Below, piece by piece: positions 2,681 to 14,880 of a stretch of DNA of 64,000 nucleotides. The stretch covers positions 1 through 64,000 of the forward strand of contig JADLGO010000050.1 in the NCBI GenBank assembly GCA_020849275.1. Reading direction: 5' to 3'. The notes under the pieces were generated by a model, which had not been told where the DNA came from, ran no database searches, and was given only the letters and a program-made list of their open reading frames with translations. Position 1 is the first letter of the stretch. The number at the start of each line of letters is the position of its first letter. The translations under genes were made by a program, and so were the position numbers. The stretch is from Chthonomonadales bacterium (GTDB lineage Bacteria; Armatimonadota; Chthonomonadetes; Chthonomonadales; CAJBBX01).

Positions 2681-5122
2681 ATGACCGACACGCCTGCCTG
2701 CCCCCACTGCGCCGGCCCCCTGGCCGCCGGCGACTTTCACTGTCCGCGATGCGGCGGCCCCACCGGCCGCATCGAGTGGTCTCTCTCGTCCGGCCGGGAG
2801 CCCGCGCTCGGGCCGGTTGTCGTGCGCCCGGGTGAGTCGTTCTATCTGGTGGCCTCCAACTCCGGCGAGGCCGGTGTGCGCGTCACGGTCGACGCCTCGG
2901 CCGCCAGCGGGGTCCGCCTGACTGGCGCCCCGTCGCTACGCGTCGACGCCGGCGCCTCCCAGGCCTTCGCCTTCGCGCACCTCGTCGGGTCAGAGCCGGG
3001 CGGCGCCCTCACCGTTCGGAGCGAGGACGCGCCCCGCCGTGAGTGGTGGGAGCGGCGCTCGTGGCGAGAGCGCAAGGTTCGTCTGGCCCCGCACGTGCGC
3101 GTCCGCGACGAGCGCTGGGTGCTCGGGAGCGCCACCCTCGTCTTCCCGGCCGGCGTGCGGCGGCAGCGCCTGTGTGTGTGGAACGACTCCGAGCGACCCC
3201 GCGCCCTCGAGACCCAGACGCCGGCCGGCTTCCGCGTGACGCACCTGGGGACGCCGCTCGGCCTGACGCCCATTGCCGCGCCGGCCGGAGAGTGCGTCGA
3301 GCTCGCCCTGGAGATGGCGCCCGACACACCGGGCGCGCCGGATGCGCAGTGGGCCGGGGGCCCGGCGGGCCAATCGGTGCCCATCGTGCGTCTGCCGATG
3401 CCCGCTGTCGCGCCTGGCGCCGACCTGGTGGTCGCCATGGACTTCGGCACGCGCAACACGCGCGTGCGGGTGCGCTGGCGCCGCGCGCTCGTCGCGACCC
3501 GGCCTGCAGGCGCCGTCGACGCGGTTGGCGACCGTGGCGACGCGCCCTGGTTTCCTTCCGAGATGGTGTTGGACGAGCGCGAGCGCGGCTTCCGCTGGGG
3601 GTCCGACGCCGCACGCCACTCCCAGTTGAGCCCTCTCGCGGCCGGCGAGGTGCACGTTGAGAACCTGAAAACCGACCTGCGCGAGGGCACGGAGCGCTAC
3701 ACGCGCCACCGGCCGGAGTGGACCAACGAGGAGCTTCTGCGCCGTTTCTTCGCGCGCATCCTCCACCGCGTCGACGAGCTCCTGCGCACGATTGACCCGG
3801 CCCAGCCGCTTGCCCGCGAGGCCCTCGACGTCCGCTACGTGGTCTGTCGGCCCGTGCTGGACGCGAACGAGGGCGACGAGCGCGGCCGTGCCTACGAGGT
3901 CGCGCTGCGCGGCGCCCTCGCGCGCTGCGGCGTACCGGAGCGCGCGGTGGAGTTCGTGCTGGAGCCGGTGGCCGCCATGATCGGAATCGCCCGCCGCCGC
4001 GACAGTGAGCTGCTCGGCCTGCCGGAGGGCACCCCCATCGCCCTGATCGACAGCGGCGGCGGCACCACCGACGTGGTGCTCGCGCGGCTGCGGGTGGGCA
4101 ACGGCCAGGTGGGCCTCGACGTGGCCGGCAGTTACGCCCTCCGCATTGGGGCCGGGAACCCCGCCATGCGGCTCCCGTTTCTGCCCGACAGGGATCGGCG
4201 CGAGGTGGGCGGCAACGTGCTCGACTACGCGCTGGCGCACTGTCTTCTCACGCGGGCCGCCGATGTGCTGGAGGCCGACGGCCGTCCGGCGCCCTCGGCC
4301 GTGCTGCGGGTCACAGGCAAGGAGATCGACCTGCCGTGGTTGCGCGAGTTCGTGGCGATCTGCCGCCGCATGAAGGAGCGCTTCGCCCGCGCCAGCACGC
4401 TGTACCTCAACCGCGCGCCCGGGGAGGGCGCCTCCGAGGCCGCGCCGTTCCCCAACCGACCCGAGCTCCAGGGCGTGCGTCTGGTGCACGCCCTCTACGA
4501 CGAGCACATCGCCGGCCCCATCCTGCGGCCGGTCGTGGAGGAGTTCCTGGAGCGGGTCGTCGGCGCTCAGACAGACGCGTGCGCCGTGCTGCCCTCGCAG
4601 GTCAAGCGCGCATTCTACGTCGGTGGCACGAACGTCGACCCGTTCGTGCGCCGCCATTTCGGCCGCGCCTTCGCGCTGGCGCAGCCGGAGAGCGACGCCG
4701 ATCCCCAGAGCGACGAGCGGATCGCCGAGCGGCTCGAGGCCGTGGTGGAGGGCGCCGTCTGGTTCGACGAGCGGATCTTCGCCTCCTCGCCCCTGGCGCT
4801 CTCCCTGGTCACCGGCGCCGGGGAGACATCGCTGCTGGAGGAGGGCGCCGCCCTGCCGCCCGCCGGCATCGCCTTTCCCCGCTTCGTGACGGTGCCGCTG
4901 GCGCCGGGCGAGGAGATCGCCGCTTCGCTGGTGGCCTCTGGCGGCGGCCTGCCCGGCCGCGTGGTCGTGGCGCGCGCCTTCTACCGCAACGAAGCGGACG
5001 AGCCCCAGGAGGCCGTCCTCGCCGTCACGTGCAGCCGCGATCGCGGCGTCTGCGCAGCCCTCCAGGTGGATGGCCGCAAGCTAGAGCAATGGCGCTTCGT
5101 GCTGACGGAGGACGGCCAGTGA
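2681..5122 (+). CDS. Hsp70-like ATPase with N-terminal zinc ribbon
   Basis: The protein is 813 aa. The ATG at 2681 follows GGAGAG and starts exactly at a zinc ribbon (CPHC then CPRC, residues 6-23). Residues ~50-245 look beta-rich. An actin/Hsp70 ATPase domain follows: phosphate-1 loop MDFGTRNT (~252), connect segment with EPVAAMIG, phosphate-2 loop LIDSGGGTTDVV (~455) and adenosine loop YVGGTNVDPF (~645). The last ~110 residues are beta-rich and could replace the DnaK substrate-binding domain. Its stop overlaps the start of the GrpE-like gene, so the two are translationally coupled. It is far from canonical DnaK and is probably a specialised chaperone or cytomotive-type ATPase of this cluster. 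Confidence 0.85.
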   Translation: MTDTPACPHCAGPLAAGDFHCPRCGGPTGRIEWSLSSGREPALGPVVVRPGESFYLVASNSGEAGVRVTVDASAASGVRLTGAPSLRVDAGASQAFAFAHLVGSEPGGALTVRSEDAPRREWWERRSWRERKVRLAPHVRVRDERWVLGSATLVFPAGVRRQRLCVWNDSERPRALETQTPAGFRVTHLGTPLGLTPIAAPAGECVELALEMAPDTPGAPDAQWAGGPAGQSVPIVRLPMPAVAPGADLVVAMDFGTRNTRVRVRWRRALVATRPAGAVDAVGDRGDAPWFPSEMVLDERERGFRWGSDAARHSQLSPLAAGEVHVENLKTDLREGTERYTRHRPEWTNEELLRRFFARILHRVDELLRTIDPAQPLAREALDVRYVVCRPVLDANEGDERGRAYEVALRGALARCGVPERAVEFVLEPVAAMIGIARRRDSELLGLPEGTPIALIDSGGGTTDVVLARLRVGNGQVGLDVAGSYALRIGAGNPAMRLPFLPDRDRREVGGNVLDYALAHCLLTRAADVLEADGRPAPSAVLRVTGKEIDLPWLREFVAICRRMKERFARASTLYLNRAPGEGASEAAPFPNRPELQGVRLVHALYDEHIAGPILRPVVEEFLERVVGAQTDACAVLPSQVKRAFYVGGTNVDPFVRRHFGRAFALAQPESDADPQSDERIAERLEAVVEGAVWFDERIFASSPLALSLVTGAGETSLLEEGAALPPAGIAFPRFVTVPLAPGEEIAASLVASGGGLPGRVVVARAFYRNEADEPQEAVLAVTCSRDRGVCAALQVDGRKLEQWRFVLTEDGQ

Positions 5123-6306
5123 GCGCCACCGGGCCGGACCTGCTCGCGCTTCTTCGGCGCGACATCGCGGATCTCGGAGCGCGCATTGGCGGCATCGAGC
5201 AGATGGTGCACGAGCAGGCAGACCGGCTGCGCCGCCCGGACAGCCCGTCGACTGCCGGGACGGCTGGCGTCTGGGGCGACCTGGTGGAGCGCGTGTGGCT
5301 CGCCGCGCCGCTCGCCGCCCGGCTCGGCTTCCTACGCGAGATACTGGACCGCACGCATCCGCTCCAGACCGCGCTCCAGGAGGCCGCGGCGCTGGAGGAG
5401 CTCCGCCGCAGGGGGCCGGACCTGGAGAACTGGATCGGCAGCTACCCGTCGCTCTTCGCCGACTCGTTCGCGCGCCTGGACGCGGGCGGCCTGGGCGAGG
5501 CCGGCGGCGCCGAGCGCCTCGCCGTGGCGACCCTGGCGGAGGTGCACGAGGGGCTCGGTACGGACCTGCGGGCTCTTGGCGTCGAGTGGATCGCGCCGAC
5601 GCCGGGCGAGGCGCTCGCGCCCGACATGGACGTGGTGGGCGAGGAGGAAGCGGCGGTGCCGGCGGGCCGCGTGGCGCGCGTGCGTCGGCGCGGCCTGCGC
5701 TGGCGCGCCCGCGTGCTCCTGCCCGCGCAGGTTGTGCGGGCGTTGCCGGGCTCACGGCCCGGCCCGGCGGTCGCTCCGCGCATCGAGCCGGCGGCCGCTG
5801 TCGGCCCGCGCGGACCGGCTACCACCCCCGCCCGGTCCGTGCCCGGCTGGCTGCTCGAGCTCCGGCGCGCTCACGCGGCGCTGCCGGCCGGCACACTGCC
5901 GCCGCTCGCCCCGCTGGAGGAGCTCGCGTCGTTCGGGGAGGCGCCGGGCGCCGTGGACGCGCCGCTCGAGGCGCTGCGCGCGCTGAGCGCCCCGGCCCTT
6001 CCCTGGCTGAGCCCCGGGGGCGCCTCGGCAGCCGGCGGCATGCCGCCGGAGCGCGCCGCCGCGCTCCGAGAGGCGCGCGCAGCGCTCGCCGAGTGGCTCC
6101 GAGGGGCGCTCGGCGTGGAGGCGATCACGCCGGAGGAGGGCGCCGCCCCCGCCCCCGGCGAAGTCGAGGTGGTCGGGCGGAGGCGCACCGCCCACCCGCG
6201 CGAGGATGGCTCGGTGGCGAGACTGGAGCGCGCCGGCCTGCGTAGATACGGTGACGTGCTTTTCGCCGCGCGCGTGGTGCTCTACGAGATGGGAGACGAC
6301 CGGTGA
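5119..6306 (+). CDS. GrpE-like nucleotide-exchange factor with two head domains
   Basis: The protein is 395 aa. The GTG at 5119 overlaps the stop of the Hsp70-like gene (GTGA). Residues 6-37 form a short predicted coiled coil. Residues ~154-211 carry a GrpE beta-head pattern: GVEWIAPTPGE, then a G-R-V-A-R-V-x4-L stretch and LLPAQVVRA. A second copy occupies ~331-391: GVEAITPEEG, then GSVARLERAGLRRYGDVLF and ARVV. In GrpE this head contacts the Hsp70 nucleotide-binding domain to release ADP, so it is inferred to serve the upstream ATPase. Canonical GrpE is about 200 aa with a long coiled coil and a single head. The linker (~220-330) is Pro/Ala-rich. Confidence 0.7.
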   Translation: MSATGPDLLALLRRDIADLGARIGGIEQMVHEQADRLRRPDSPSTAGTAGVWGDLVERVWLAAPLAARLGFLREILDRTHPLQTALQEAAALEELRRRGPDLENWIGSYPSLFADSFARLDAGGLGEAGGAERLAVATLAEVHEGLGTDLRALGVEWIAPTPGEALAPDMDVVGEEEAAVPAGRVARVRRRGLRWRARVLLPAQVVRALPGSRPGPAVAPRIEPAAAVGPRGPATTPARSVPGWLLELRRAHAALPAGTLPPLAPLEELASFGEAPGAVDAPLEALRALSAPALPWLSPGGASAAGGMPPERAAALREARAALAEWLRGALGVEAITPEEGAAPAPGEVEVVGRRRTAHPREDGSVARLERAGLRRYGDVLFAARVVLYEMGDDR

Positions 6307-7730
6307 CGGCGCCGACGCGCGAGGCGGGGCCCGACCCGGTGCTGTGCCCGGCCTGCCGCGAGCCCCTTGTCGGCGACGCGGCATACTGTGGGCGCTGTGG
6401 CGTGCAGGTGCGGCATCCGTGTCCGGCATGCGGCGGCGCGGCCCGCCTGCTGTCCACCATGCCCGGCGCGCCCGAGCCCTGGTGCGCCGAGTGCGGCTCC
6501 CTTCTGCAGGCGTGCGAGCAGTGCGGCCGATGGCTCCTGCCCGGCGCCGACGTATGCCCCGACCCACAGTGCGCCGGGACGGTGTCGCCCGCGTTACCAC
6601 AGCACACCGGGCGGCGCTGGGACCTGGCGGGCCGCGGCTCCGGCTGGGTGTGGCCGGCAAGGTGGGAGAGCGCCAACCCCGATCGCACATCGCCCGTGCG
6701 CGCGACCTGGGCCGCCGGCGCGGAGGTACGCGCGGCCTTCGTGGCGCACGGCCGGCTCTACGTCTGGGAGGGAACCAACCTGGTAGCGCCGGCGCCGGTG
6801 CAGCCGTCCGCCGCCGTGACGGCGGGCGGCGCCTCTTACCGCGCTCCGCTGGGCCCCGCCGCGCGGCCAGCGCCACGCCTGGCGGCCAGCGAGCGGTGCG
6901 CGGTGGTGGGCGGCGGCGTCGTGCTGGCGATGGAGCGTCGCTTCGCGCTGGCCGGTCTGCGCGCCGGCGAAGTGGCGCCACTGGAGGCTGGCGAGCCCAT
7001 CACGCAGGTGGGTGGGCGTGCCTGGTGGGTTGCGTGGACTCGAGAGGGCGGTTCGCCCATGCTGCGGCTCGCCCGTGCCGGCGACACGTGGGACGCGCTA
7101 ACGCCCGAGTGCGTGCCTGTGCCGGAGGGCGCGGAGCCGGCCGAGGACGCACGCCTGGCCCTGATCGGTGGGCGCGCTTGCTGGCCGGGCGCCGATGGGG
7201 CGCTCTGGGGGCTCGAGTGCGCCTCGCGGCGCGTGGAGCGCATCCTGGCGCCTGCCGAGGGGTACCTGATGGTCTGGGCCGGCGACGACGGGCCGCGATC
7301 GGCGCGCGAGGCTCGCGGGGAGATCGTCGTCGGCCTCTCGAGGCCGGTGGACGGGCGCGTGGCTGTGACCGCGCCGGCCGGCGCGGGTCCGCTGCACGGG
7401 GTGTACGCGGCGGGTGACCGGGTCTTCGTCGTGGGCGATCGGGTGAGCGTTTTCGACGCGCGCACGGGCGACCGGCTGACGGAGGCGGCCCGGCCGGCCG
7501 GGCGATGGATCGAGGGGGCGGCGGTGCCGGCGTCGGGCGGTGAGCCGCGCCTGCTGGCGCTCACTCGCCACGACTCCTACGCCAGCCTGACGGCGCTCAG
7601 GGCATCGACGGGCGCGGAGGATCCTCTCTGGCACGACGGCGGGGCGCAGTCGATCGCGCTCCTGCCGGTCGGGCGCGCCCTGTACGTGGTCAGTACCTCC
7701 GGCATCGTTCGCCTTACCGAGCGGGCTTGA
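6303..7730 (+). CDS. Zinc-ribbon protein with beta-propeller-like domain
   Basis: The GTG at 6303 overlaps the preceding stop by 4 bases. The first ~95 of 475 residues contain three Cys4 knuckles: CPAC..CGRC, CPAC..CAEC and CEQC..CPDPQC, matching the zinc-ribbon style at the start of the Hsp70-like protein. The remainder is a series of short beta repeats with Gly-Arg-Leu/Val turns (GRLYVWEG, GRACWPG, DRVFVVG, RALYVVS) that look like a PQQ/WD-type propeller. No catalytic motif is visible. It is probably a scaffold or sensor in the same complex; the function is unassigned. Confidence 0.7.
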   Translation: MTAPTREAGPDPVLCPACREPLVGDAAYCGRCGVQVRHPCPACGGAARLLSTMPGAPEPWCAECGSLLQACEQCGRWLLPGADVCPDPQCAGTVSPALPQHTGRRWDLAGRGSGWVWPARWESANPDRTSPVRATWAAGAEVRAAFVAHGRLYVWEGTNLVAPAPVQPSAAVTAGGASYRAPLGPAARPAPRLAASERCAVVGGGVVLAMERRFALAGLRAGEVAPLEAGEPITQVGGRAWWVAWTREGGSPMLRLARAGDTWDALTPECVPVPEGAEPAEDARLALIGGRACWPGADGALWGLECASRRVERILAPAEGYLMVWAGDDGPRSAREARGEIVVGLSRPVDGRVAVTAPAGAGPLHGVYAAGDRVFVVGDRVSVFDARTGDRLTEAARPAGRWIEGAAVPASGGEPRLLALTRHDSYASLTALRASTGAEDPLWHDGGAQSIALLPVGRALYVVSTSGIVRLTERA

Positions 7731-7764
7731 GCCCCGGGGTCGCCGGACGGAGAGAGGACGCGCT

Positions 7765-9174
7765 ATGACGCCACAGATGCAGGGGCGCCGCCGGGCAGCG
7801 CGCCGGGTGCTGTTGCTCGCCGCCACCACGTTGCTCGCCGGCCTGGCGGGGCGCGCGGGTGCGCAGGCGCCCGCGCGCGACGACTACGCCATCGTGACGG
7901 ACGTGCCCCGCGAGTCCGTGGATCGCTGGCTGAAGGAGCAGGTGGCCCGTAGTGGCGGCGACTGGGGCGAGGACCGCTACCAGTTCGTGGTCGGGTTCTC
8001 CACGGGCCACTACGGATCCGATCCCGTGCACGCGATCGCCACGCGCCGCCTGGCCTTCTCGCTCCTCAACAACTCGCTGGCCATCGGCGACCAGGTGACC
8101 GCCGTCGCGTGGGAGATGCGCTTGTGGCGCATTGGGCCGACGGTCACCCTGGACGAGAGCCCGGAGAGCCGCGCCGAGTGGGTGAGCTCGGTGCCTTACG
8201 CCCCGCAGGCAGGCAGTCGCGGTGGGCACGACGCCGAGCGGGCGCTCTTCCAGGTGCTCACGCGCGTCGTGGAGCCGGCCGGCCATCCCCACGGCACGAT
8301 CGTCCTGCTCCTCACCAACAGCAACCAGAGCCAGGGGCCCACCGGCACGCACGCGGCGTTGTTCGGCGCCAACAACCCCCATCTGCTCGGCGTCATTCGG
8401 CGGCTCGGCTTCCGTCCGCCCGTGCGCCAGAGCTTTCAGGAGCGCGCCGCCGGCCGGACGCTCTCCATAGACGTGACGGCGCTCTTCCCGCGCAAGCTCG
8501 AGTCCCTGCCCGGCGCGCCACCGCGGTCGCGCTACCCGACCTTCGCCCCGCAGACCTGGCAGCCGCCGGCCGATCGCCCCGCCGCCTCGGAAGCGCTCCC
8601 CAATCCTGTGCGCGCGTCGGCCGGCGCGGGGGCGGCGGGGCCCGCCGGCGGGGGAGCGCGCCCACACGCTCGTGACCGCGCTCGGCCACTGCTCTGGGTA
8701 GCCCTGCTCATCGTGCTCGCGCTGGCCGCCATGTACCTCTATTGGCGGCGCGGCGGACCGCGCAAGCCCGTGCCTGTCGTCGAGAAGGCCGCGCCGAAGG
8801 GGCGCCCGGTGCCTGGCGTCATCGCCGGCACCGTGGGCGCGGCGCCGCACGCCGCGCCCGTACGTCTGGCGGACCTCACGACGGCCAGCCGGTGGCGTCT
8901 GGTCGGCTCGGATGGCGTTCCCGTAGTCGAACTCGACGAGGGCGAGCCGGCCTCCCCGCCGCTCGCGCTGCTCGCGGTCACCGAGTCCGGCGCGCTGAGC
9001 GTGGAGGCCGGCGTCGACACGGTGCTCCAGGACGCCGACGGCGCGAAGATCGACGCGCGCAACCCGCGCCGGATCGTGCTGGAGCCCGAGGGCATCCTGG
9101 TGTGCACGGTCGCGTCGACCACCACGGCGCGCAAGCCGCTGCGCCTCGAGCTCCGGCACGAGCGCGCGTCTTGA
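7765..9174 (+). CDS. Signal-peptide, single-TM protein with VWA-like domain
   Basis: This 469-aa protein starts with an Arg-rich signal peptide (to about AGAQA, residue 34). Residues ~40-255 resemble a von Willebrand A fold: strand FVVGFSTGHY at the usual MIDAS position, GDQVTAVAWE, and a second strand IVLLLTNSNQSQGP. The DxSxS metal motif is not intact, so metal binding is doubtful. A Pro/Ala-rich linker leads to a transmembrane helix (~308-328, LLWVALLIVLALAAMYLYW) and a beta-rich cytoplasmic tail. It lies between the chaperone-like genes and the nuclease/tubulin genes and may anchor the assembly to the membrane. The fold assignment is inference. Confidence 0.65.
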   Translation: MTPQMQGRRRAARRVLLLAATTLLAGLAGRAGAQAPARDDYAIVTDVPRESVDRWLKEQVARSGGDWGEDRYQFVVGFSTGHYGSDPVHAIATRRLAFSLLNNSLAIGDQVTAVAWEMRLWRIGPTVTLDESPESRAEWVSSVPYAPQAGSRGGHDAERALFQVLTRVVEPAGHPHGTIVLLLTNSNQSQGPTGTHAALFGANNPHLLGVIRRLGFRPPVRQSFQERAAGRTLSIDVTALFPRKLESLPGAPPRSRYPTFAPQTWQPPADRPAASEALPNPVRASAGAGAAGPAGGGARPHARDRARPLLWVALLIVLALAAMYLYWRRGGPRKPVPVVEKAAPKGRPVPGVIAGTVGAAPHAAPVRLADLTTASRWRLVGSDGVPVVELDEGEPASPPLALLAVTESGALSVEAGVDTVLQDADGAKIDARNPRRIVLEPEGILVCTVASTTTARKPLRLELRHERAS

Positions 9175-10187
9175 GGAAGCCGCCGCGCGTCCGCCTGGCT
9201 TTGCGTACCGCCCTGCGCGGCCTCGCCGCCGCGAACGTGCTGGCGCTCCTTGCGCTCTGGGCGCTGGAGGCGCTCGTGGCGGAGCGGTGGTGGCCCAGCA
9301 TCCTGATCACCTACGTGCCGCAGTGGCCCTTCGCGGCCCCCACCGCGCTGCTCTGCCTGCTCCTCTTGCGCCGGCCGGACGCACGGACGCTGGCGTGGTG
9401 CGCCGCCGCGGCGGCCATCCTTGCGTTCCCTCTCATGGGCCTCTGCGTGCCGCTGCCGCTCGGGATCCCGGCGGGCGTGCCCGTGCGCGTCGTCACCTAC
9501 AACGTGCACGGCGGCCGCGCTGGGGCGGGGGCTGTAGCGGCGGCGATCGCGGCGCAGCGGCCGAGCCTCTTCTGCTTGCAGGAGGCCACGCCGCCTTCGG
9601 GGGGCGCGTCGCTCCTGCCGGCCCTACGCGCCGCGCTGCCCGGCTACCGCTACGTAAGCCACGAGTCGCTGTTGATCGGCTCACGCCTGCCGGTCCGCGG
9701 GCACCAGGCGCGCGTGATCGGCCGCGCCGGGGCGCGCCGCGCAGCGCTGGCTGCGAGGCTCGACGTGAAGGGGCGGCCGCTGACCGTGGTCAATGTGCAC
9801 TTCGCCACGGGCGCGACAGCCGAGACGCTTCTGCGGCGCCGCGGCGCGCTGCGTGCCTACCTGGAGCAGACCGCGGCCGTGCGCGGCCAGCAGGTGGACA
9901 ACCTGATGGCGCTCTGCCGCGGCGTCGGCACCCCACTGGTCGTCTGCGGCGACCTGAACACTCCGCCTCGCGGCATCCTCTACCGGCGACTGACGCGCCA
10001 GCTGGACGATGCCTTCTCGTCGGCCGGCGCCGGCTTCGGCTGGACCTATCCCGCCGCGTGGCCGATGCTGCGCATCGACCACATCCTGGCCGGGCCGGGC
10101 GTCGCGGTGCGCTCGGCCCGCGTGCCGCGCGTGCGTGCATCGGACCACCGGCCGGTCGTGGCGGACCTGGTGGTGACGGGCTCGTGA
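9171..10187 (+). CDS. Membrane-anchored endonuclease/exonuclease/phosphatase family protein
   Basis: The TTG at 9171 overlaps the previous stop (TTGA). About 100 residues with three hydrophobic segments precede an EEP domain starting near residue 105. Its catalytic set is complete: TYNVHGG (Asn), LQEAT (metal-binding Glu), VNVHF (His), GDLNTPP (Asp/Asn), RIDHILA and SDHRPV. The family includes Mg-dependent nucleases and phosphodiesterases such as sphingomyelinases; the membrane anchor argues for a lipid or extracytoplasmic phosphodiester substrate, but this cannot be decided. Total length is 338 aa. Confidence 0.85.
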   Translation: MRKPPRVRLALRTALRGLAAANVLALLALWALEALVAERWWPSILITYVPQWPFAAPTALLCLLLLRRPDARTLAWCAAAAAILAFPLMGLCVPLPLGIPAGVPVRVVTYNVHGGRAGAGAVAAAIAAQRPSLFCLQEATPPSGGASLLPALRAALPGYRYVSHESLLIGSRLPVRGHQARVIGRAGARRAALAARLDVKGRPLTVVNVHFATGATAETLLRRRGALRAYLEQTAAVRGQQVDNLMALCRGVGTPLVVCGDLNTPPRGILYRRLTRQLDDAFSSAGAGFGWTYPAAWPMLRIDHILAGPGVAVRSARVPRVRASDHRPVVADLVVTGS

Positions 10188-10275
10188 TGTATACTGGTGA
10201 TCGTCGCGGCGCGTTCGACCTGTCGGCCCCCTGTCGGCCACGGCCGCGCGCCGCCCGCGTGGGAGGTTCCCTTCG

Positions 10276-13200
10276 ATGAGTGGCGCCCTGTCGGTTCGCA
10301 AGACCCTCGTGCTCGGCCTGGGCAGCACCGGCCTGGACATCTGCGAGCAGCTCGCCGAGCACCTCACCTGGCAGTTTGGCGGCTTCGAGCGCGCTGCGTG
10401 GGTGCGCCTGCTCGTGCTGGAGACCGCGCAGCCACGGAGCCCGCTGGGCGACCGGGTGCTGTGGGGAGGGATGCGCAAGGAGGAGTACCTGCCCTATCGC
10501 GCCAGCCCGCGCACCACCGGCGCCGAGTTCGGCTTCTACGAGTGGCAGGACGGGCCGACGCTCCAGGACATCGATAGCCCGGCGGACGGAGCCGGCAACT
10601 GCCGCATGCTCGGCCGCCTCTGCCTCTTCCACCCTCGCACTTACGCCAACCTGCGGCGGCGCCTGACCGAGGACATGAGCGCGCTGGAGCAGCTCACGCC
10701 CCAGGGCGTCGCCGACCGCCTGGGCGAGTCCGGCCTCACGGTGAACATCCACAACGAGGGGACCGTGGTGTACGTCGTCGGCACGCTCTGCGGCGGGACC
10801 TGCAGCGGCGGCGCCGGGGATCTGGGCTACCTGCTGGACGTGTGGACCGGCAACGCCTCGCGTCGCCAGGCCATCTTCACGGTACCCCATCCCACGCTGG
10901 CCGGGCCGCTGGCCGCGCGCTACAGGAAGAACGCCTTCTACGCGCTCCGCGAGCTCAACCACTACCAGCTTGCCGACACGTCCTGGGTGCAGACACTGCC
11001 AGGCTCCGACCGACCCTACGTGTACAACACCCGGCCCTACGACATCCTGCGCGTGGTGATGCCTGGCGGCGCCGGCGCGGATGATGTGCGCAACCTCAAC
11101 GCGATGATCGCCCAGTATCTGGCGGCCGCCGTGGGCCCTGCCGGATTCGAGATCGCGGCCAGTGACGTGGACGCCACCGGCAAGATGGTCGGCGCGGAAA
11201 GCATCGGCTTCATGCGTCCGCTCTTCAGCACGCTTGGTGTCGCGGCCCTTGAGTATCCCGGAGAGCATATTCAGCGCGCCGCCACGAGCCGGTTGCTTGC
11301 CGCCAGCTATGGTCGATGGACCGCCTTCTCGTCGGAGTCCGACGCGTTCGCCGCGGCGCTGGAGCAGGTCGGCGGTGCGGAGCTCGAGGCCGTGCTGCGC
11401 CGGCTCACCGAGGGAACGGAGTCGGTGGCGGCGGAGCCGGTGCGGCAGGCGTTCGGCGGCCTGGCCGACGGCGAGTCGCCGACGGTCGACGACGTGCGCA
11501 GGCTCCTGCGCGACCTGGACGCGCGCCTCACCTCGCAGGCGCCGCCCGGCAAGGACGCGCCCCCCACGCTGGCGCAGGTGATCGAGAAGAACCAGGCCCG
11601 GCTGATGCAGCAGGCACCGGCCAACGTGACCCGCCTGCTCGACCGGTCGCTCCTCGACCTTGAGGGCGGTCCCGGGCTCTGCGCCGCCGCCGTCCGCCAG
11701 TTCCTCTCGAGCGTGGAGGGCTGGTCCACCGCCACCTCCGATGTCCTCGCCGCGGGTGGGCAGGACTCGCGCACCAAGCGCGACATACTCGACCGCCAGA
11801 TCGACGAGGTGGAGCGCGGCCAGAAGGGGTTCGGCTGGGGTAAGCGCGAGAAGCTGCGGAGAGGATGGCAGGAGCTCCTGCCGCGGATCGAGTCCTACCT
11901 GGCCGCCGAGACGCGCACTCAGTCCCTCAACCACATTCAGCGCCGCGACTCGCTTCGTGCCGTCGCGGAACAGTATCGGCGGGTGACGGCGGTGGTGCTG
12001 CGGCGACTCGACCAGGTGCAGGCGGCCTTCCTGCAGGAGACGACCGAGCAGGAAAGGCGCTGGAAGCCGTTGGCGGCCTCCTCTCCGAGCGTGAACGGGA
12101 AGGTCTACTTCGACGCGGAGCCCCCGGCCGCGCGCGGCACGGTGACCGAGGAGTACTACGCGCTGCTGCGCCAACCTCGCTGGCCGGACGAGCCGGCGAC
12201 GGGTTGGGACGACGGCCGCAAGGAGCTCGCCGCCATGCGGAGCGTGGCCGAGGCGCTCGCTCCGCTGCGCGAGGAGCTTGCGCGCGAGGATGGCCAGAGC
12301 GCCTTCGACTCGCGGCCGGCCACGCAGACGGCGCGCGAGTCGATCCCTCGGGGCGTGCTGGCGGCCGCCGAGGAGCGCGCGCGCGCCTTCTTCGCGCCCC
12401 TGCGCGAGCAGACGCATATCGCCGACAAGGCCGGCCCGGCCGACCTGGCGGGCGTCGTGCAGGCCAGCGAGCCCAGGCTCGGCGTCTCGGCCGCGCAGGT
12501 GAGTGACCAGCTTGCCGGCGTGAAGGGCGCCGTGCCCATGGAGTCCTACTTCGCATTCATGGACCTGCCTCCGACCGAGTCTCAGCCGCGCGAGGCCATC
12601 GCGCGCGTCATCGAGCTGGTGCGCAACAGCGTGCAGCTTCGGCGCGGGACCATCAACGATAGCGGCGATCCCTACCGCCTGCTCCTGCTGCGCGAGAAGC
12701 ACGGCTTCACCCTCGGGCAGATGCAGGGCGTCGTGCGGACGGGGCCCTACGACCACCACGCCCTCCAGGCCGCCGAGGGCTGCATGGACTTCAAGTTCTG
12801 GCACACGCGCCGCGACGTGGATTGGGTCGACCCGCTCGTACCGCCGGCGCAGGTGGAGGCCACCGAGGAGGCCTGGCTGATGGCGGTGCTGCTGGGCCGG
12901 CCCGCCGACAAGGGCCTGGCCTGGCTTCCCGCGACCAAGGGCGAGATCGCGCCGGAGGGCTGGTATCAGGTGGTTTCGGGCGAGTTCTACGTCTACCATG
13001 CCGGCGAGCTGGAGGCGAGCGAGAAGGGCTGCACGCTGCCGCGCTCGTTTAACACCGCCGTCGCGCGTCTGCTCACGCCCTCATTTGCGCTGCTGCGGCG
13101 CACGCTCTCCATGCGTTTCAACACCTACGCGGGAAGCTGCGGCCACGCCCGCGTCGTGAGCGCCGTCGACACCGCGGTGCGCTCCCTCGCCACGCTTGGC

Positions 13201-13497
13201 GTGACCGAGGTGGACGCCACGCGCGCCGACCGCATCGTGCGGCGCGCCTACCGGCGCAACGACGCCCTCACGCGCGCCTTCTTTGACATGAAGACCCGGG
13301 GGGTAGATCCGTCGGAGTTCGCGCACATCCGGCGGTCGGCGGGCACGCCCATCGAAGGGAGCGGCTCCGGGACCTACCAGGCGGACGGCTACTACTGCCC
13401 ACAGGGCCACCACTGGCTCGGCGCCGAGATGCAGAAGCTGCTGGAGGGGCAGTTCCGCTGCCCCGTCTGCAACACGGAGGAGCGCTACTGGCCGTAG
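10276..13497 (+). CDS. Tubulin_2-like (FtsZ/tubulin superfamily) GTPase with C-terminal zinc ribbon
   Basis: The protein is 1073 aa. The ATG at 10276 has GGGAGG 9 bases upstream. The N-terminus [20 protein letters not shown] is a Rossmann-type nucleotide-binding start, and residues ~173-188 hold [16 protein letters not shown], the equivalent of the tubulin signature GGGTGSG. FtsZ is about 380 aa, so this is a far larger family member of the kind Pfam calls Tubulin_2. The middle (~350-800) is helix- and charge-rich. The C-terminus has CPQGH and CPVC, a zinc ribbon like those on the first and third genes of the block. An 88-base gap separates it from the nuclease gene, so it may have its own promoter. 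A membrane-associated filament role is inference. Confidence 0.8.
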
Positions 13498-13528: not shown

Positions 13529-14236
13529 TTGGCCGGCGAGATCGGGCCGCTCGCGGTAGTCCTTCTGAGCGGCGGACTGGACTCCAGCACCGTGCTGGCG
13601 ATGGCCCGCGCCGAGGGCTTCGCGCCCTGCGCGATGACCTTCCGCTACGGCCAGCGCCACGCTGGCGAGGTGGAGTGCGCGCGACGTGTGGCCCGGGCGA
13701 TGGGTGTGGAGCGCCACGCGGTGGTGGACATCGACCTGCGGCAGTTCGGCGGGTCATCGCTGACCGCCGAGATCCCGGTGCCGAAGGGGCGCGCGGTGGC
13801 GGAGATGGCCGACTCCATCCCCCCGACCTACGTGCCCGCGCGCAACACGATCTTCCTCTCCTTCGCGCTCGCCTGGGCCGAGGTGCTCGGCGCGAGGGAC
13901 ATCTTCCTCGGAGTGAACGCGCTCGACTACTCCGGTTACCCCGACTGCCGGCCGGAGTACATCGAGGCGTTCCAGCGCATGGCCGACCTGGCTACCGCGG
14001 CGAGCGTGGAGGGCCGGCAGCGGCTGCGCATCCACGCCCCGCTCTTGCACCTCTCCAAGGCCGACATCGTTCGGCGCGGAATGGCTCTTGGCGTCGATTA
14101 CGCCCTCACCACGAGCTGCTACGATCCGGCGCCCGACGGCGCGGCCTGCGGAGAGTGCGACTCCTGCTCGTTGCGGCGCAAGGGCTTCGCCGAGGCCGGC
14201 GCGCATGACCCGGCTCGCTACCGCGCGGCAGGCTGA
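13529..14236 (+). CDS. queC: 7-cyano-7-deazaguanine synthase QueC
   Basis: QueC converts 7-carboxy-7-deazaguanine to preQ0 using ATP and ammonia in the queuosine pathway. The 235-aa protein has the PP-loop SGGLDSST (~14), the family segment [14 protein letters not shown] and [18 protein letters not shown], and the zinc-binding cluster near the C-terminus ([15 protein letters not shown]). Start is TTG 13529, with GGGAGG at 13510-13515, a rather long spacing of 13. It is followed after 14 bases by queE. Confidence in function is high. Confidence 0.95.
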
Positions 14237-14250
14237 GAGGCCGGAGCCCG

Positions 14251-14880
14251 ATGTACGCCGTTAAGGAGTGCTTCTACACGCTGCAGGGCGAGGGTGCGCA
14301 CGCCGGCCGGGCGGCGGTCTTCTGCCGCTTCGCCGGCTGCAACCTCTGGTCGGGGCGGGAGGAAGACCGGGCGCGCGCCGTCTGCTGGTTCTGCGACACG
14401 GGCTTCCTGGGCACCGACGGCGAGGGCGGCGGCCGCTTCGCCGAAGCCGCAGCGCTCGCCGAGCACATCGCCGCGCGCTGGCCGGCCGGACGCGGCGATC
14501 CGTTCGTGGTCTTCACCGGCGGCGAGCCGCTCCTGCAGCTGGACGCGCCACTGACGGCGGCCTGCCGCGAGCGCGGCTTCACCGTGGCGGTCGAGACGAA
14601 CGGCACGCAGCCCGTGCCGGACGGCGTGGACTGGTTGTGCGTGAGCCCGAAGGCCGGCGCGCCGCTGCGCGTGACCGCGGGCGACGAGCTCAAGCTGGTC
14701 TATCCGCAGGCTGGGGGCGAGCCCGAGCGGTACAGCGGGCTGGCGTTCGGGCGCTTCTACCTTCAGCCGATGGACGGCCCCGAGCGGGAGCGCAACACGC
14801 GGCTGGCGCTCGCCTACTGCCTGGCGCACCCCCACTGGCGCCTGAGCCTCCAGACGCACAAGCTCCTCGGCATCCCCTGA
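14251..14880 (+). CDS. queE: 7-carboxy-7-deazaguanine synthase QueE
   Basis: QueE is the radical-SAM enzyme that rearranges carboxy-tetrahydropterin to 7-carboxy-7-deazaguanine, the step before QueC. The 209-aa sequence opens with the family hallmark CFYTLQGEGAHAGRAAVFCR. Its cluster-binding cysteines are spaced C-x14-C-x2-C (CNLW … CWFC), the E. coli type rather than the usual C-x3-C-x2-C. TGGEPLLQLD and VETNGT are also present. queC and queE form a two-gene unit; queD and queF are not in the window. Confidence 0.95.
   Translation: MYAVKECFYTLQGEGAHAGRAAVFCRFAGCNLWSGREEDRARAVCWFCDTGFLGTDGEGGGRFAEAAALAEHIAARWPAGRGDPFVVFTGGEPLLQLDAPLTAACRERGFTVAVETNGTQPVPDGVDWLCVSPKAGAPLRVTAGDELKLVYPQAGGEPERYSGLAFGRFYLQPMDGPERERNTRLALAYCLAHPHWRLSLQTHKLLGIP

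Follow-up and report, generated by a model that had tools for sequence, protein, structure and literature searches.

Operons that pair FtsZl1, a tubulin-superfamily protein, with a VWA protein were described by Makarova and Koonin (2010; PMC2875224), who proposed a membrane-remodelling or other envelope-type role for FtsZl1. Tubulin and HSP70/GrpE were later reported as non-overlapping themes of DO-GTPase/GAP1 conflict systems (Kaur et al., 2020; PMC7159879), among which the GAP1-N2 DO-GTPase systems use tubulin-domain and vWA proteins, HSP70 with GrpE, zinc ribbons and FNIII-like beta domains. Here we describe a six-gene run on the + strand, at positions 2681–13497 of a 64,000-nucleotide stretch (the window; contig JADLGO010000050.1) from a Chthonomonadales bacterium of the phylum Armatimonadota (genome of 4.8 Mb, 99.9% complete), in which an FtsZl1 protein of the Tubulin_2 family (PF13809) is encoded together with an Hsp70-like ATPase, a GrpE-like protein, a zinc-ribbon protein and a VWA protein. 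By sequence comparison, these five genes are a conserved module.

The locus shares with the FtsZl1-VWA operons the PF13809 protein, the VWA partner and membrane-associated proteins, and the OmpA proteins reported there recur in the relatives of the window. The main text of the 2010 paper names GTPases, protein kinases and OmpA, with no mention there of Hsp70, DnaK, propeller or zinc; compared with those operons, the window adds the Hsp70/GrpE pair and the zinc-ribbon protein, and a scan of the six operon genes and five flanking genes revealed no GTPase (for GAP1, no profile of its own was used). Whereas Kaur et al. (2020) reported the two themes apart, the tubulin and HSP70/GrpE genes are here encoded together, without a P-loop GTPase among the scanned genes. 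The original prediction, a note made from the sequence alone, had taken the full gene set, with a dedicated exchange factor and an EEP enzyme, to have no known description; this overstated its novelty, since FtsZl1-VWA operons were known from 2010 and the tubulin and HSP70/GrpE themes from 2020. What appears to be new is that tubulin and HSP70/GrpE occur in a single operon with no conflict-system GTPase nearby. A literature search, with most subscription journals and supplements outside it, returned no paper uniting tubulin, Hsp70, GrpE, zinc-ribbon and VWA genes, and in the literature found no function was reported for FtsZl1, though the family has been known for some 15 years.

The six genes are:
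2681–5122, + strand: Hsp70-like ATPase, 813 amino acids (aa), assigned from motifs, family profile and predicted structure
5119–6306, + strand: GrpE-like protein, 395 aa, from profiles and an internal repeat
6303–7730, + strand: zinc-ribbon protein with a beta-propeller-like body, 475 aa, from a Cys cluster and a homologue's match to PQQ_2
7765–9174, + strand: VWA protein, 469 aa, from predicted structure, a transmembrane (TM) helix and a signal-peptide-like N terminus
9171–10187, + strand: EEP-family (Exo_endo_phos) membrane protein, 338 aa, from a domain match; lineage-specific and outside the core
10276–13497, + strand: Tubulin_2/FtsZl1 protein, 1073 aa, from the PF13809 match

Conservation of the five-gene module

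The gene junctions measured, in order, −4, −4, +34, −4 and +88 bases. Since three of these are overlaps of 4 bases and the other two are short gaps, the tightly joined six-gene operon that had been predicted was recovered at its place. PF13809 was found in 84/291 genomes of the phylum and the Hsp70-like family in 32/291. Tubulin_2 was present in 28 of the 32 genomes bearing the Hsp70-like family, compared to 84 of 291 overall (Fisher p = 2.6e-13; the test takes genomes as independent, though they are related). In 17 of these 28 genomes, the two genes shared a contig and lay no more than about 10 kb apart, and in most of the other 11 the Hsp70-like gene, the Tubulin_2 gene, or both, were near a contig end.

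At least four core genes stood together in nine loci besides the window, distributed over six family groups (f1, f2, f9, f15, f28 and f41). The order Hsp70–GrpE–zinc ribbon–VWA–tubulin was common to the window, L040 and L044 and, apart from an Hsp70 gene missing from its position, to L049; L052 and L053 had the same five-gene order with another VWA type. Less complete sets occurred in further families. Outside the phylum, Hsp70–zinc ribbon–VWA–tubulin occurred in three gut genomes, so that the recurrence of at least four genes together, by which the original prediction proposed to recognise a system, was observed both within and beyond the Armatimonadota. An Hsp70-like gene also adjoins tubulin in Poribacteria, Myxococcota and Desulfobacter, and the Poribacteria and Desulfobacter proteins match Pfam HSP70. 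That the genes are chance neighbours without joint function would agree with the many Tubulin_2 loci that have no Hsp70-like gene, but it is contradicted by the co-occurrence table and by a gene order conserved across several families and also beyond the phylum, and we regard it as extremely improbable.

Within the family of the window, 5 of the 12 members searched have Tubulin_2, with differing neighbourhood types. In the tubulin tree, the rows closest to the window belong to family f28 and not to its own, which fits patchy, partly horizontal inheritance. Linkage to Hsp70 was clustered on the tree, with more than one gain (17 changes vs. a shuffled mean of 22.5, the former count being rough owing to truncated contigs). 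In Desulfobacter latus, the gene next after Tubulin_2 encodes a fusion of a protein kinase with an Hsp70-like domain (L155:8146-11847).

Chaperone pair and zinc-ribbon protein

The following regions were delimited in the first three proteins:
2699–2752, + strand: N-terminal zinc ribbon of the Hsp70-like protein
about 2771–3391, + strand: two beta-sandwich regions of the Hsp70-like protein
about 3419–4774, + strand: Hsp70 nucleotide-binding domain
about 4796–5098, + strand: lidless beta substrate-binding-like domain of the Hsp70-like protein
about 5449–5736 and 5977–6279, + strand: tandem GrpE C-terminal (beta-wing) units
6345–6572, + strand: Cys cluster of the zinc-ribbon protein

Taken singly, the Hsp70-like protein of the window gave no match to Pfam HSP70. 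Its family profile matched solved DnaK structures (4.6e-26), and one homologue matched PF00012 at 1.8e-13. The alignment of the AlphaFold2 model (mean predicted local distance difference test, pLDDT, 83) with DnaK scored Z 30.6 and covered 435 residues, taking in the nucleotide-binding domain and reaching into the beta substrate-binding domain. Residues 247–807 of the model were aligned to DnaK 1–471 at a high overall root-mean-square deviation (rmsd) of 11.5, likely reflecting a differing domain orientation in the model; structure rows restricted to the nucleotide-binding domain gave an rmsd of about 3.3 over 340 residues. The positions aligned with the phosphate-1 motif (DFGT), Lys70, Glu171, the phosphate-2 motif (DSGGGTTD) and the adenosine GG motif of DnaK are kept in the window protein, and the four zinc-ribbon Cys residues are invariant across the family. 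Taken together, the profile match, the fold alignment and the invariant Cys confirmed the zinc ribbon and Hsp70-type fold predicted for this putative ATPase. No helical lid was present in the model, in which the chain stops about 7 residues past the last beta strand. Hsp70 variants without a lid exist.

For the GrpE-like protein, the family profile matched solved GrpE at 9.3e-8, and a homologue matched above the Pfam cut-off (8.3e-11) in two stretches. An internal repeat in the window protein scored 132, vs. a maximum of 75 in 500 shuffles, and both results bear out the 'double GrpE' description. The pair resembles DnaK-GrpE in its Hsp70 nucleotide-binding and beta substrate-binding-like folds and in its GrpE beta-wing homology. 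It differs in the extra zinc ribbon, the beta-sandwiches, the missing helical lid, the tandem GrpE unit and the absence of DnaJ from the operon. At other sites, the genome encodes two canonical DnaK proteins, a canonical GrpE and a canonical FtsZ, which supports an Hsp70/GrpE pair private to the operon.

The third protein matched a double zinc ribbon domain at 1.8e-7 in a Pfam-type scan of the operon proteins. Its body is probably propeller-like, based on the PQQ_2 match of a single homologue (5.9e-6, just below the Pfam cut-off). Of the zinc-ribbon, propeller-like scaffold originally proposed, the ribbons were therefore substantiated, while the propeller rests on this one sub-cut-off match. 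The related proposal of matching zinc ribbons in three proteins held for the Hsp70-like and propeller-like proteins; the tubulin-like family does have a C-terminal ribbon, but its first CxxC is altered in the window copy. Searches against NCBIfam gave weak sub-cut-off matches for the Hsp70-like and EEP proteins and none for the other four.

VWA protein, Tubulin_2 protein and the stators of relatives

Regions delimited in these two proteins were:
about 7957–8484, + strand: VWA domain with a degenerate metal-ion-dependent adhesion site (MIDAS)
about 8686–8754, + strand: single TM helix of the VWA protein
10306–11304, + strand: GTPase-like domain of the Tubulin_2 protein, followed by a long middle region
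about 13396–13470, + strand: C-terminal zinc-ribbon-like motif of the Tubulin_2 protein

The VWA protein consists of a signal-peptide-like N terminus, the VWA domain, the TM helix and a C-terminal beta domain. Its model (pLDDT 82) aligned with the VWA domain of CLCA1 at Z 11.1 (rmsd 2.9, 138 residues), and VWA-type domains made up nearly all of the 50 structure matches listed. The single-TM, membrane-associated VWA-like protein of the original prediction thus agrees with the fold, the one TM helix and the N terminus, and both an Hsp70 and a VWA fold were obtained when structures were predicted, as had been suggested for a check. The MIDAS motif DxSxS is replaced by GFSTG in the window protein, whereas relatives of a second type (type B) retain DVSGS; in a profile comparison, the two VWA families matched at E 8.3e-9.

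The Tubulin_2 protein matched PF13809 at 1.1e-33 (117.4 bits vs. a cut-off of 27), which identifies it as a member of the tubulin superfamily, as predicted. The signature loop GGGTG(S/T)G reads CGGTCSGG in the window and CGGTGSGG or CGGTCSGG in relatives. The family profile gave only chance coiled-coil matches against solved structures. In L099, a rumen-type genome, several Tubulin_2 reading frames occur in tandem, some of them broken into pieces.

MotA/ZorA-like and MotB/ZorB-like (OmpA) genes were located beside Tubulin_2 in 13 distinct loci (L042/L097, L032, L057, L059, L062, L065, L066, L083, L105, L108, L154, L172 and L174) from several Armatimonadota families, Poribacteria, Deinococcus plasmids and one other bacterium. 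The ZorB-like set has an invariant Asp in a predicted TM segment, and the L066 protein matched ZorB at 3.2e-24. One of these loci (L042/L097, genome G046) carries a tubulin relative from the subclade of the window, 42% identical, and comprises, in this order, VWA, tubulin, MotA-like and OmpA/MotB-like genes. OmpA-family proteins near FtsZl1 were noted earlier (Makarova and Koonin, 2010; PMC2875224), and the present loci suggest that such proteins can represent the MotB-type member of a stator pair. Like Zorya, then, these relatives have ZorA-like and ZorB-like genes, here beside tubulin, whereas neither was found in the 64 kb window and one weak OmpA-region match was found elsewhere in the genome; of the Zorya components, the search covered ZorA and ZorB.

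The stators bear on whether the operon is a conflict (anti-phage) system as in Kaur et al. (2020). In that case, a tubulin-like effector would be restrained by the chaperone pair and the VWA protein until infection, whereupon the effector would assemble and either contain the invader or kill the cell. Pointing in this direction are the ZorB match, the patchy presence within the family, the listing of HSP70/GrpE, tubulin and vWA for DO-GTPase systems (PMC7159879), the trypsin-like proteases of type B operons, which match defence-protein models such as LmuA, and an Allomeiothermus Tubulin_2–VWA pair near brxL and a DNA methyltransferase. However, none of the six operon proteins (0/6) was matched by PADLOC, the downstream genes of the window are those of queuosine biosynthesis, no DO-GTPase, GAP1 (within the limit of the search given above) or nuclease core was seen in the operon, and ZorAB-like stators are similar to ordinary MotAB/TolQR-type motors as well. 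We therefore consider a conflict system possible but somewhat doubtful.

Alternatively, the operon may have a phage-unrelated role in envelope maintenance or membrane remodelling (vesicles, wall attachment or cell shape), as Makarova and Koonin (2010) proposed for FtsZl1. This is consistent with the signal peptide and TM helix of the VWA protein, with the OmpA-domain, peptidoglycan-binding-type stator proteins of relatives and with the separate canonical FtsZ, while the sparse presence of Tubulin_2 in the phylum speaks against general housekeeping. Such a role is likewise put forward only tentatively, and we judge phage defence and envelope maintenance to be roughly equally probable.

Proposed mechanism and neighbouring genes

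The reading that we prefer, an envelope-associated FtsZl1 system of five genes run by its own Hsp70/GrpE cycle, has in our judgement an even chance of being correct. From the order of signal peptide, VWA domain and TM helix, the VWA domain would lie outside the cytoplasm and the C-terminal beta domain inside. The VWA protein may sense or anchor at the envelope, and the tubulin-like protein would dock and assemble on it. Aided by the tandem GrpE, which would be its dedicated nucleotide exchanger, the Hsp70-like protein could load, remodel or dismantle this assembly. The zinc-ribbon protein could serve as scaffold, with the similar ribbons on it and on the Hsp70-like and tubulin-like proteins mediating a shared docking. 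To this, many relatives would add an ion-driven stator of the MotAB/ZorAB-like kind, which is absent from the window. Filament formation by the tubulin-like protein is an assumption of this scheme, and the EEP enzyme would be an accessory or a chance addition. A more specific version, a chaperone-gated, VWA-tethered envelope tubulin machine that is linked to a motor in many lineages and possibly acts in phage defence, seems to us rather unlikely as a whole.

Several observations weigh against the five-gene chaperone-run system. The T6-H7 elements and a known C-terminal filament-forming domain were reported as not identifiable in FtsZl1 (Makarova and Koonin, 2010; PMC2875224), which makes filament formation by the Tubulin_2 protein doubtful. 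In 32 of 60 Armatimonadota Tubulin_2 loci, none of the searched partner genes was present in the stretch covered, so that Hsp70 is not universal to Tubulin_2 loci. In one genome (G210), the Hsp70-like gene is on a separate contig from the rest of the operon. Finally, the Hsp70-like protein of a gut bacterium (L098:4395-6899) has a degenerate phosphate-2 motif, DIGENSSK, which suggests that ATPase activity was lost in that clade.

If the Hsp70-like protein does act on the tubulin-like protein, this would represent a private chaperone cycle governing a cytoskeletal-type protein in bacteria. The Hsp70/GrpE pair in the same operon provides a concrete candidate partner set for FtsZl1, and the stator genes of relatives suggest a connection of a tubulin relative with ion-driven motors.

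The EEP protein, which the original prediction had counted as part of the system, matched the Exo_endo_phos domain at 1.3e-26 and gave no match to solved structures by phmmer. Its gene was present in none of the other operon loci examined, and in the four closest operons with a VWA–tubulin junction, this spacing was 54, 1, −1 and 6 bases. Of 81 genomes searched, 41 had EEP homologues; wherever a genome other than this one had both EEP and Tubulin_2 (18/18), the two were on different contigs. This location away from Tubulin_2 indicates that the EEP gene is a lineage-specific neighbour, and it was ruled out as a core component. A second EEP-family copy, 39% identical, is located at G000:C54:66584-67570 in the same genome. 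In L033, L053, L056, L062, L065 and Deinococcus, several of them type B operons, the VWA–tubulin slot is filled by proteins of 105–184 aa, several plainly membrane-spanning, and the EEP protein could thus be a swapped-in accessory. That it is the effector of the operon, in the slot filled elsewhere by these small proteins, would also suit its 4-base overlap with the VWA gene, but given the empty slot of the closest operons, the homologues on other contigs and the second copy, we consider this highly unlikely.

Upstream of the operon are a PIG-L gene and a YHS gene; downstream are QueC, radical-SAM (QueE-like) and URO-D genes. The QueC and QueE-like genes lie at 13529–14880 of the window, with QueC starting 31 bases past the tubulin gene, and were not kept beside the other operon copies seen. 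No base-composition island was evident, GC being 0.69–0.78 over 1–24 kb without a marked shift at the operon, and a promoter and terminator scan gave counts not above those of shuffles. Among relatives, viral carriage was limited to a single distant viral contig.

In type B operons, a membrane-anchored trypsin-like protease is encoded right after the tubulin gene (L052:4737-5501, L053:9604-10371 and L033:15018-16804, with two copies in L033). Plasmid-borne relatives were found in Deinococcota only, and these are distant. On plasmid 2 of Deinococcus deserti (L172:14217-21260), VWA and tubulin genes are accompanied by genes for a stator-like pair, for a repeat protein and for a protein that matches PD-T4-6/kinase-type defence models, and about 2.7 kb ahead of the VWA gene is without a listed gene. 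On a plasmid of Allomeiothermus silvanus (L173), the VWA–tubulin pair lies between two IS701-like transposase copies and adjoins brxL, a helicase-related gene and the DNA methyltransferase gene.

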